Below, in pieces: positions 7,101 through 41,300 of a stretch of DNA of 64,000 nucleotides. The position numbers and the translations under genes were made by a program. Source of the DNA: Hypomesus transpacificus (taxonomy: Eukaryota; Chordata; Actinopteri; Osmeriformes; Osmeridae); contig NC_061081.1 in assembly GCF_021917145.1 (NCBI RefSeq), positions 8,766,100 to 8,830,099 of the forward strand, in the 5' to 3' direction. Position 1 is the stretch's first letter; every line of letters begins with the position of its first letter. The notes beneath the pieces are model-generated. The model ran no database searches. It worked only from the letters and a program-made list of their open reading frames with translations, and was not told the DNA's origin.

Positions 7101-10100
7101 CATGTAATAAGTCCACTGGTGCTGTTATTAATAATACCGCGGCTAATAAGTGGCTAAATGTGCACTCATTCCTGCCAAGCCCAATTCTGTTAAGATAGCT
7201 GATTATTATTTATTTATTTTTTATGAGAGAACTAGAGTGGAATGGATCAGTACTTGAGTGTGTCCTTGAAGCTGGACAATAGCCCTGATTATGTTTGCAA
7301 AGGAGGATTTGCAGTTTTCCAGCAGGTAATGGACCTCTGCTGACTGTGTGTTGATCAGAGCAGAGCCCTCAGGGCTGTAGCCAGCAGCAGGTGAACATCA
7401 AACTGAATACCTAGTTTGAATCTGCTTCTTTAGCTGTAGAAAAATAGACGTTATTTACCTGGTTTTTCCCCTCAACATTCTTATTTTATGGGAGTGTCCT
7501 GTCATATGAATGGATAAAGGATAAAGTCATGGGCATAATACTTCCTGACACTTTGACCTTGATGGGTTGCATTTTTATGTTGTCCACACCGATAAAGCAT
7601 TCTGGCATCTAGTTTTGGCTGTTGCAAAGTTTGAGAGATTCCAGATGGAATTGCCTCAATTCTAGCTACAGTACTAACTTTGTGTCCTCCCGTGTCTGTA
7701 AAATGTGATTCTGGTATCTTTCTGCACCTATGTTGACCCAATCCACACCTTTCATTACAATCACATCTATAGATGAGAGTATACACACTGTGTTTGTACG
7801 TTCAGCCTCGCTTGCGACTCTAACCTTGTGATGCCAGAACTTCAAAACTAACAAAGTAATGAAGAACAAACACATATATCCTTTCTAGGTTCATGATTAG
7901 ATTGTGCCATCCAATCTCAGCCCTGGCCATTAACGATCACATTTCAGTGGTTGTAATTGGACAAGGCATGACATCACTGTAAATTAAATATATTTATAAG
8001 TAATGAAACAAATTTGTAGCAAAAACTGTAGCAAAGTGTGCTTCTAGCCTTGCAATCAAACATGGAACATGAAAGAAACATGGATTATAGCTAAAATTTC
8101 CAAGCTTAAACATTTTCCTGGAGCTGAAACATTTTGAATATGCACTTTAATGTTATTTGACACCAATTATTGCCCGTTGTGGGTAAAAGATGGTCTCATA
8201 CTCTACTCTATAAAATCTTAAGGGCATGTATAATCAGAAGACTACAGAGGGGATTTATGTCCTGTTGATGTCCTTTCCAGAGGGGAAAACAATGGCAACC
8301 TACACTGCTCAGGACGATACTTTTCAGGCGCAGTACGCTTTTACAAGACAGATGACCCCTGCCAATCCAGTTATCAAAATCAAGTCTTATTTTACAGAGA
8401 GGTAATCCATAGAAACACGATTACAGTTTGTTTGTGAGGACCTCAACCCCCTTTTATTTTAATCTGCCCTCTTCTTCAGAACAATGTGTCCTAATTAGAG
8501 GAAGATGGGAGCTTCTCAAGATGAGGCTCTTGGCATAGACGAGCACTTAATCAGTTCTAGAGAAGTTCTTGTGTCCCGGCCGACCAGATCAAATCAAGAC
8601 GACATTTCAGGATGCTTAGCGAGAGCTGGATCTGAGTGCCCCCTCCTCCCTTTCATAGACACACATGCAATCACTCAGAAACACCATTGTGCACGCACAC
8701 ACTTTCAAGCACATGCTAGTTGTAGGTGCACACACAACTGCATACATTCTCATCACATGCACACACACATTTTATTCCGATGAAAGCCCCATACAAAAAT
8801 CTTAAGCAATTCAAACCTTGTTTGAGATCATATTCCTCATCCTCTCCTCTCTGACAGTTCTTCTTGAGTCTGTATGTCACTGATTAAAACCTTGATTCAT
8901 TGGCTTCCCTGCCAGGGCCACTCGACAGACTTAACTGTTCAGTCTGTGATTAGGAACAGTGTTTGATAAATTCAGCAGAACCGTGCACTGAAACAATAAA
9001 CCCTTCTTATCACTTATCACTGCTATTAAGTGACTAATGGAAATGGTGTCTTCTCAGTTCATGTTTTTCATCTTATAATGTGTGTTTTGACTTAAAATCG
9101 TCAGGCGTTTGTGGTGCCATACTCCAAAAAAAAAAGACTTTTGAAAACATTAACAGCTGCCCTTTGAGCTTCTTTTTCTGTTGCTGTTAAACCTGCAGAA
9201 ATATGTTTTTGTTGTGTTGGTTCATGAATACAGAACAAAGCAATGGAGTTTCCTGTCCTGTTAGCCTTGAGGAATGTACGTCAACACTTCTCACCAGTCA
9301 CGTACTGTTGGTACTCTGAAGTGAGACTAGAATTTTGTCCACAGACACAGACAGTGAGTTAAAAGAATGAAACAGCCCCAACATAAGGTACATTTATCAT
9401 CACACCAACCATTTGCCAGGGCCACAGGCCTTGGTGATTACCACAGTAACTGTGCTAAGCCTCAGGCATATCACATTCCTTTAATGGATAAATGCAATTT
9501 CAGAGTGTTACTGTTGGAAACGTTAGAAATAGTCAGGGTCTGATGAACACTGTTGAATCACAGTAAGGATATGACTGGATGTTGGTCTGGAGTGTTTAAA
9601 ATCCTTTTGAGAGGGAAAGAAGGGCAAAGCCCTTCCATGTTCACTCTCACAACTGATCAATATGTTATTAAAAGCTTACTCCACTGATTCACAAGAGGCT
9701 TTTCTGTCTCCTAATACAAGTTAGGTCTCAACGACTACACATTGAAATGTAATTTTAGCATCAAATGAGACAGAACTCAAAACATAACCACATTTCTTTA
9801 TTGCAAATCTTCAATCTTCAATCCTCAACCTATTGGTAAATATGCCTGTATATGTATCCTTCATTCCCGATGTGTTACCCATTTAATTTGGATCTGATCT
9901 TATTGCTCTACCTAACTCTCTGGGAGTCACCTAGGTGATCATTAAGTCTTCTAGATATTGATGTTGTACATTTCCCTGGTTTTCTCCCATAGATCCACTA
10001 TGAAGAGGCCACGAGAACTGATTGGGTTGCACAATTCAACACTATGAATGTGCGCTTGTGACAGGCTTGCATTGCTTTATAACACTGGTGTTGTAATGAT

Positions 10101-37761: not shown

Positions 37762-38308
37762 CAGCATCTGTGAAGTATTGTGTACCACATTTCTAGTGCT
37801 CCCCTCACCAAACATCAGTCACCACATGGCTGTTCACACACAGACAGAAAAGGAGGAAGACACTCTCCCAAGTTCTTCTGTTTGACAGGTGAAAGGATGA
37901 GCTGCATCCGTCTTCACAGTGCTACTCACTACTTAAGAACGTTGGAGTGAGGAAGAGTGAAAATAGAGTGACTTAGAAATGGGAGTGAGTCTGAGTAAAG
38001 ATGGAGTGGGTGGAGAGAGGGCAGAGTTGATCTAGGGGCATCTATTTGGTGTCTGTCACTGTAATAATCAAGGCATGTAGCAGGTTACCCTGTCCAGTTC
38101 TGTCCTACCGTTTGTCTGTAGCAGCCCAAACACACGCAATATACACAGAGATGCTGGGGCAATCCATTATCTCAGCTGGAAGGTAGGGGGTGGATAACAC
38201 AGGGGGGATGCCCCAATATGCCCTCACCCCCCTTTGGTGAAATAAAGGATGTCTTGCCATATGTCTGGATAAGTCCATTTAGCTGGGGGAGGGGAGGGTT
38301 GGTTTGAA
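36722..38308 (-). other. probable osbp 3' UTR
   Basis: No coding exon of either neighbour is visible. The stretch holds AT-rich sequence and a CA microsatellite at about 37722-37758. Lying between the osbp stop and a minus-strand AATAAA, it is best explained as 3' UTR. Confidence 0.45.
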
Positions 38309-41300
38309 TCAGAAGATATCAGGGCACATGTCCCAGTTCCCCTGCTCCTTAGCCTCCCAGTAACCCCCCTTGTAGACGTGCATGGTCTCTCCCGAGACAG
38401 GGTCCTCGAACCTCTCGAACCACAGTGCCTGGTAGTTGTCCTGGTGGGAGCCTGAAGAGAACAAACCAAAAGCTGTAGAGGTGGCGACACATCGACTGTG
38501 AAGCCACATTGAGATATCTTCCTGGTGCGAGATCCAGGTAGTCATACTAGTACTACTCATACTGGTTCTAAACAGTAGTACTGGTTCTAAATCCTAGTAC
38601 ACAGCATTCATTGCTGCTGGAGGAGCTGCAAAGAAGGTAGAGACCAACACAGGAACAACACAAAACAGAGAAAATGACTATGGGGAAGGGGGAGTAGGCC
38701 TGAGAGTGGGAGAAAGCAAGAGAGAAAAGAGAACTGGACTGGTGTTACTTGCTTTTGACCGTAGATCCATTAGGGGCTTCAGAGCCTTCCACTGAAGGAC
38801 AAGATGGATAGATGAAGGGGAGAATATTGGTGAAGAGGAACTAAACTGGCATGATGATGGCCTGGGGCCTCATTTATAAAACAAAATCAAAAAGTGGCAT
38901 ATAAATGTGCTTATGGACAAAGACATTCTGATTTAAAAGCAGGCACACACTCCTTACACACTGGAAATGTAGTTTAGTATACCGTTCTCCTCATCATTTC
39001 TGAAAATACATTTCAGAATGTGCCAGTAGGCCTATTGTTTAATAGTTACAGATCTATTTATATTCTCAAAACATACGAGAGGTTCTTATGCAATTCCTAA
39101 TATCTTTGTATTTATTATCCTAAATGTGTTCACTCAGGTTACTCTTCATATATACATATAATATGAGAGAGATACCCAGACCATAATATTTCTATTTATT
39201 CTACACAATGGTAGGCTTAGGCTACCAATTTCAAAGTGTTTGTCAAGTTTCATCCTACGGCTGTAGGTCCGTAAGGCCGACCACACAGTCCACTGTCAAG
39301 TCATTCTTTTTGTAAATCCCAAACTTTGCTTGGAAAGTAGTCTACGCCTTCTTTTGTAAACAACATTGATAAATGAGGCCCCAGGTGTTGGACTGTGTGA
39401 GTGTGAATGTATGTAGGGGCCCTAAATAATACTTGCTTTGAAAAGGAGAGCTGGGTGGCCCTTGGGAAGCTGCAGCGATAAAGTGGGAAAAAATGTTATG
39501 TGTAAAAAGGTTTTTATTTAATTATTATTATGAAAAATAAAGAAAGGAGATCGATAGACATATAGACACCCAGACAGCCAGCCATGTAGATTGATAGATA
39601 GAGCTACTTGCATGCAACAGGTGTGTGAGGGGGAGAGTCTTCTGTATCAGCTGAACAAGAAAAGGGGAGGAAAAAGAGATGTCTAACCGTGTGCTTCTGA
39701 ACCCCCAAAACCAAAATACATGCAAATGTGATGCAAAACGTGTCACTATATTACTAGTAGTACTGATATGGGATACATTGTAGCTGGTTACTAACTACTG
39801 CATGCTCAACTGTAGAAGAGAGAATTTGATGGAATAATGGCATCGTTTAGATAGAGACAACCAAGTGTGTGTTGCGTGTGTTTAAGTGTGAGGGAAGCAG
39901 ATGCAGAGGTACTTGCTTTCGTCTGAAGCCTCGCTGGCCTCCATGCCAACCTCCACTGTGTCGGCTAAATGGAATGGAAACGTGGATAGAGGGATGGGGA
40001 AAAAATGAGGGGAAAAAATGATAACGATGAGATGGGCATTGAAGGATGGGCATGAATGACTAAGTCTATATACTTACCTTGTGGTACACGTGTGTGTGTG
40101 TGCGTTTATGTGTGTGGTTGAGGAAAGGTAGAGCAAGAGGGAATGGAGGAGGAGGAAGAGAGGAGTACTTGCTTTTGTGAGGTGAGTCAGTAAAGGAATC
40201 CTCATTGACAGCTTGGGGAGGGGGGGGGGGAAAGACAGACAAACAGGTGAACCACAGACTGAGAGACAGACACCCTCCTCCCTCTCCTCCCCCGATCCTC
40301 TCTCTCTGTTCTCTCTCTGTCTCTTACCCTCCTCGGGTGGGATGGTCGTCTTGGCCGCCTCCCTCTCCCTCTCCCTCCGCACGATGCGCTGCTTCTCCTC
40401 CAGCCTCTGCTTCTCCGTGTTGGCCTCGTCCCACCGCCCATCCTCCATCAGCCTCTGGTCGGGCCGGTGGCGGCTGTCGGTGGGGGCTATGCCCTCCTCT
40501 GCCTCGTTAAGGCTCAACGCTAGGGTGGAGAAGTAGTACATGGTCTCCGCTCCCTCACTGGGGTGGAGAGAGATGGGGGGGAAAGGCGGGACAAAAAGAA
40601 AAGAAGAAAAAAGAGAGAAAAGAGGAAGGAAAAAGGAAGAGATTTGGGTGAGGGGAAGGAAAGGGGGGAGGGAGACAGTGAGGGTTGAGTAGTGAGAGAC
40701 GAAAAAAAAAAAAAGAGAAATGTCAAGTGTCATCAATGCACTGTAATCTCGTGGCCTTTTCATGGTCAAAAGGATTCATCGCTCTCCAGCGGGGGGACCT
40801 CGGCCTGTACTCACGGTAGCTCGTTCTTCTTCCACAGCTCGCGGGCCTTCAGGGTCTGGTAGACCGTCTTCTGTTTGCCCTCAGCGCCATTCTCCCCCCC
40901 CTTGCTGCTCTGCATCACCCTGGAGAACTCCATCCTCTCATCCCAGGTCCCTGACAGCACAAAGTGGGCCTTACCCTCCTTGTCAGTAACCACCCCTGTT
41001 ACCTGGGGAAGACAGAGAGGAAGGGGGAATGGTGTGTGTGTGAGAGACTTGTAGTCCTGTGTGTGTGTGTGTGTGTGTGTTAAAGAGTAAGAGTGTCGGT
41101 TCTGAGTGAGATCAGAGCCTCACCTTCCTGGCCACGTCTCTGGAGAAGTAGCTGTAGGGGGCAAACTTGAGGTGACAGCGGTCTCCAGTGGTGTGGTTCA
41201 CCACATCTATCTCTCCTGACTGACACAGGCAGCAAGAGAGAGAAAAAAGAGAGATTACAGAAAAGGGGTAGGAAGGGAGAAAGAGTATTCTCATGTAATT

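Follow-up and report, generated by a model that had tools for sequence, protein, structure and literature searches.

Why does the last intron of a fish osbp gene contain several short open blocks that end at one and the same GC splice donor, and are these blocks exons? At contacts between ER and Golgi, OSBP swaps cholesterol for PI4P, and it is a target of antiviral and anticancer drugs. We examined the question in a window of 64,000 nucleotides of the Hypomesus transpacificus genome (contig NC_061081.1, positions 8,766,100 to 8,830,099), where osbp lies on the minus strand and was modelled with 16 coding exons that encode 782 residues without microexons. The 15 ordinary donors of this model are GT without exception. 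The predicted protein carries EFFDAMED, the known FFAT motif, in exon 7, as well as the ORD and what we take to be a PH domain, and its top match in the PDB is human OSBP (7v62_A, 2.1e-183). By the 16-exon model, the PDB match and a tree built from 203 ORD columns, the gene is closer to human OSBP than to OSBP2 and belongs to OSBP. A genome search with the OSBP C-terminus recovered three further copies having exons 15 and 16, namely a second osbp (L040) and two genes (L041 and L042) that we take to be osbp2 (OSBP2). In the ORD tree the window gene and L040 are sisters (99/100) and human OSBP falls outside the pair, which places the duplication on the fish side; L041 groups with L042 (support 100). 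An 82-residue stretch of the ORD found no tblastn relatives in one scan each of the viral contig and genome contig collections.

The original prediction had proposed three in-phase microexons in the last intron, and when the intron was read again their positions and lengths proved correct (A, B and E in Table 1). All three stand, but the number does not, as two further candidates (C and D) had been overlooked, C owing to a donor that follows CAT and not AAA. The sense strand of the intron contains GCAAG five times, in every case as GCAAGTA and in every case as the donor of a candidate microexon, and its antisense strand contains no GCAAGT; introns 1-14 of the gene, 4228 nt in all, contain 3 GCAAGT. 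Each of the five candidates runs from an AG acceptor to GCAAGTA, is open, has a length that is a multiple of three and is of phase 1-1, and at 33-48 nt all would be internal exons within the 51-nt bound of a microexon, with a usable acceptor and donor. Their acceptors score 6.4-11.6, as compared with 6.0-13.7 for the ordinary acceptors of osbp; that of exon A is AAG, a weak form, both in the window gene and in L040. The introns that follow would be of the GC-AG type, GCAAGTA being present in 5/5 and also at exon A of L040, with A or T instead of G at position -1. The terminal residues of the five peptides are formed by split codons, and where they meet the last exon A, B, D and E each form a Ser codon, as had been claimed for the three original sites, but C forms Cys (TGC). 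Two states each for A, C, D and E and three for B make 48 inclusion patterns, and every one of them reads on without interruption to the normal stop; this extends to five exons the earlier statement that phase 1 is kept, that stops are absent and that all patterns are open. Skipping is frame-neutral in all 48.

Table 1. Coordinates of the last osbp exons, the candidate microexons and related features (positions are those of the window unless another contig is named)
Feature	Position	Strand	Remarks
osbp exon 15 (ORD C-terminal helix region)	40328..40557	-	donor AGG/gtaaga, ends in phase 1; matches 7v62_A
Last intron of osbp, 1876 nt	38452..40327	-	host of the microexons
Microexon A, 39 nt	40173..40211	-	donor AAA/GCAAGTA; conserved in L040 (1181-1143)
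Microexon B, 48 nt (39 nt via second acceptor, 39955)	39917..39964	-	donor AAA/GCAAGTA
Microexon C, 39 nt	39612..39650	-	donor CAT/GCAAGTA; not in the original prediction
Microexon D, 33 nt	39437..39469	-	donor AAA/GCAAGTA; not in the original prediction
Repeat element with 20-nt terminal inverted repeats (CCTGGGGCCTCATTTATAAA)	38861..39385		inside the D-E intron
Microexon E, 39 nt	38753..38791	-	donor AAA/GCAAGTA; third site of the original prediction
osbp exon 16, last coding exon	38309..38451	-	split codon, then 46 residues and stop
osbp copy L040	contig C25		
osbp2-like copy L041	contig C22, near 5.12 Mb		
osbp2-like copy L042	contig C270		

The chance expectation was taken from a null of 520,600 strand-bases, comprising both strands of the window minus positions 38001-41000 and of 20 segments of contig C22, each 10 kb long. 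A unit was counted where an acceptor above threshold stood 15-60 nt upstream of the donor, at a multiple of three and with no phase 1 stop. The null contained 36 GCAAGTA (0.13 per 1876 nt), and open in-phase units ending in GCAAGTA numbered 1 at acceptor thresholds of 3, 4 and 5 and 0 at a threshold of 6; the looser GCAAGT gave 11, 7, 6 and 5 units at thresholds 3-6, that is, 0.040-0.018 per intron. The last intron of osbp holds five units at every threshold tried, and all five pass 6. The five observed are thus to be set against 0.0036 open GCAAGTA units expected per intron, a figure that comes from a motif picked post hoc, a hand-written vertebrate acceptor profile and a null not restricted to introns, and the sites are, as first supposed, hard to ascribe to chance. 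The densest cluster of GCAAGTA in the null (L026) has 3 within 1.5 kb and includes an 829-nt duplicated stretch.

We then considered where a donor common to five exons could have come from. Among the 10 pairs of exon bodies at the DNA level, none showed a similarity matched by fewer than 5% of shuffles, and among the 10 pairs of peptides the lowest value was 4% of shuffles (C-D). The five do not, therefore, have the similar bodies of a tandemly duplicated exon array; tandem duplication of one exon was rejected, and with no detectable kinship among the exons the common donor is not accounted for by simple duplication. The 19-21 nt repeat families within the intron consist of the donor and a few adjoining bases. 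An origin from a repeat element was also rejected, the intron as a whole matching nowhere else in the genome: 10 of its 13 non-self matches are to one end of the repeat element in the D-E intron, an end found at 10 or more other places in the genome, and 3 are to a GA-rich stretch at the start of the intron.

In the second osbp copy, L040, the last intron is 390 nt long and exon A is in place with the same GC donor. Between the window gene and L040, exon A is identical at 31/39 nt (peptide AIDEDSFTDSSQKS in the comparison), with 4 synonymous and 4 nonsynonymous differences, and the 11 nt that span its donor, AAAAGCAAGTA, are identical in both. The dN and dS of exon A are 0.13 and 0.74, values that carry a wide error at 14 codons, as compared with 0.093 and 0.73 for 375 aligned ORD codons. 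Exon A and its GC donor are kept in L040 with a dN/dS like that of the ORD, and it is therefore very likely that A is a genuine coding exon whose GC donor is conserved. Exons B-E are absent from the 390-nt intron, and the argument for them therefore rests on phase, openness, donor identity and number. The L040 intron after A is weakly colinear with the B region of the window (2/300 resampled sequences reach the score), a weak hint that B was lost from L040; the same comparison with the C-D stretch, the D-E stretch and the stretch after E gave scores reached by 132/200, 138/200 and 19/200 resamples, respectively. Conservation of A alone in L040, together with the lack of similarity of B-E to A or to one another beyond the donor, would agree with an alternative in which only exon A is real and B-E are chance acceptor-donor pairs or dead exons. 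However, four units are left without A where 0.0036 are expected, GCAAGT is split 5 to 0 between the sense and antisense strands, and the weak colinearity suggests loss of B, and we regard this explanation as unlikely. A GC-donor microexon was found in the same intron of neither osbp2-like copy, nor was an exon resembling A found in L041. The homologous intron of L042 has a possible 18-nt microexon of phase 1-1 at 7224-7241 (+), encoding ECDYDS and followed by a strong GT donor.

Every GCAAGTA also contains an overlapping GT, and the true donor might be CAA/GTA, 4 nt downstream, in which case exons of 43, 52 and 37 nt would break the reading frame, with truncated or unstable transcripts as the outcome. 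The dinucleotide normally used is GT, and the predicted U1 duplex energies are nearly equal in the two registers, B having 7 paired positions in both; duplex energy did not discriminate and was rejected as a test of register. However, the five lengths are multiples of three in the GC register only, the coding selection on exon A is seen in the frame of the GC register, and the bases past the GT vary from copy to copy, GCAAGTA being the same in all five and in L040, as the original prediction had stated for its three sites. The GC register is thus favoured by frame conservation, not by duplex energy, and use of the overlapping GT is highly improbable.

Overall, in-phase microexons with a common GC donor are still the best reading of the intron, now backed for exon A by its conservation in L040 and with five exons rather than three. 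It is probable, judging from the DNA, that they are weak-donor cassette microexons which lengthen the linker before the last 46 residues of the ORD. That all five are spliced appears quite probable; that their inclusion is alternative and regulated appears somewhat less so, but still rather probable. Each phase 1-1 exon would have an ordinary AG acceptor at one end and a GCAAGTA donor at the other; in this donor the T-to-C change at +2 would cost one pair with U1 and weaken its binding, and pairing at +3 to +7 would partly compensate. The predicted U1 duplexes of the five GC donors, at -2.8 to -3.3, are all weaker than those of the 15 ordinary donors (-4.3 to -11.6). With a donor weakened at +2, the exon would be spliced in only with help, and a possible helper is the pyrimidine-rich DNA just downstream of A; the pyrimidine content of the 30 nt after donors A-E is 97, 73, 60, 63 and 77%, and pyrimidine tracts can recruit TIA-type helpers. 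Skipping of any microexon would leave the frame unchanged, and inclusion would add 11-16 whole residues each, mostly rich in Ser/Thr/Pro and acidic, at the linker that joins the C-terminal helix of the ORD to the last 46 residues. Weak donors on frame-neutral exons are what would be expected of cassette exons. The microexons could alternatively be real but constitutive coding parts whose GC donors are kept by descent, which would agree with the purifying selection on exon A, similar to that on the ORD, and with the constitutive GC-AG introns conserved across vertebrates that the available text of one survey describes (PMC7242645). We consider this doubtful, given that 5/5 exons are phase 1-1 and skippable and 5/5 donors are weak, that the segment is missing from human chain 7v62_A, which has no insert at the microexon position, and that GC makes up less than 1% of mammalian donors (PMC7242645).

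Counts of splicing-factor motifs in the intron were left out of this argument because they come from nine tests, uncorrected. RBFOX-type TGCATG occurs 2 times against 0.4 expected (6.8% of resamples), PTB-type CTCTCT 4 times against 1.3 (4.8%), TTTT 31 times against 18.6 (3.6%) and TGTGT 8 times against 2.5 (0/500 resamples); the remaining splicing-factor motifs in the intron were not above expectation, and there is no SRRM4-type excess of TGC (20 seen, 23.4 expected). Both TGCATG lie near exon C (39605-39735, minus strand), one of them overlapping the GC donor of C. Two further sites on the minus strand were noted. At 40078-40070, CACAAG/GTAAGTAT joins a near-perfect donor directly to AG, with no other acceptor between the site and exon A, and may be a recursive (zero-length) splice site between A and B. 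In the region of 38627, after E and ahead of the last exon, ttctttgcag/CTCCTCCAGCAGC looks like a strong acceptor; in phase 1 it leads to a short tail and a stop, and it is possibly an alternative end or a cryptic site.

Vertebrate neural microexons are small cassette exons that keep the reading frame and modify surface loops. The osbp candidates are also short and frame-preserving; they differ in lying at the long end (33-48 nt), in the one GC donor that all five share and in the absence of an SRRM4-type TGC excess. RPS24 of mammals has three consecutive microexons of 3, 18 and 22 nt (PMC11162997), and resembles the arrangement proposed for osbp in that a series of microexons follow one another close to the 3' end of the gene and are combined variously, but the RPS24 lengths are not all multiples of three and the accessible text of that paper makes no mention of GC donors (PMC11162997). 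The tested case is intron 10 of let-2 in C. elegans, in which, as far as the consulted portions of two reports go, regulated use of the adjacent exon depends on a weak GC donor (PMC2490688, PMC7242645). The likeness to our reading of osbp lies in the weak GC donor and the regulated neighbouring exon, while let-2 has one such donor in a collagen gene and osbp has five in a row, on microexons of a lipid-transfer gene. More generally, the same survey text gives GC-AG introns a share of about 0.8% in the protein-coding genes of human and mouse, and reports that genes which have them are more often alternatively spliced (PMC7242645). In a study of zebrafish brain injury, two unannotated osbp exons newly emerge and Ptbp1a/b mRNA is also raised (PMC8162057); the text available from that study does not give the position of the two exons, which may or may not be the microexons described here. 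A description of these osbp microexons was not found in the open-licence PMC main text that was searched. As cassette microexons, the candidates are ordinary in kind; their number and common GC donor are unusual.

The peptides were first thought to sit just after the ORD. They would instead be inserted inside its C-terminal part, before the last 46 residues; counted back from the end in the 7v62_A alignment, the insertion point falls at residues 761/762 of human OSBP. According to the excerpted text of one cell-assay study, human OSBP without residues 754-807 does not support poliovirus replication, and the deleted protein still reaches the replication organelle and was treated by the authors as functionally null (PMC9786093). 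Joined together, the five peptides make 66 residues with 14 D/E, 2 K/R, 15 S/T and 4 S/T-P sites; the expected acidic character applies to 4/5, D having no D or E. The core of exon A that is common to both osbp copies is EDSFTDS. VAP is an ER protein. The FFAT motif by which VAP proteins are bound reads E-F-F-D-A-x-E after an acidic stretch, in the passages available from one report (PMC7610837). A relaxed FFAT-like pattern, written post hoc, fits 0.7% and 3.3% of the sequences obtained by shuffling the two exon A peptides, and within the protein of the 16-exon model it fits nowhere but at the known FFAT; the resemblance of EDSFTDS to FFAT, a partial match, is a lead only. Taken furthest, the intron could be a bank of five GC-donor modules yielding up to 48 C-terminal linkers, with GCAAGTA as a common handle for joint tuning via U1 or a helper factor and with exon A, the oldest module, as a second, phosphorylation-tunable FFAT-like VAP site besides the FFAT of exon 7, a combination that we think distinctly unlikely.

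If the exons are used, they would constitute an unrecorded layer of control in fish OSBP, adjoining the region whose deletion disables human OSBP, and the five weak, identical GC donors within one intron would offer a natural test bed for the control of microexons by GC donors.
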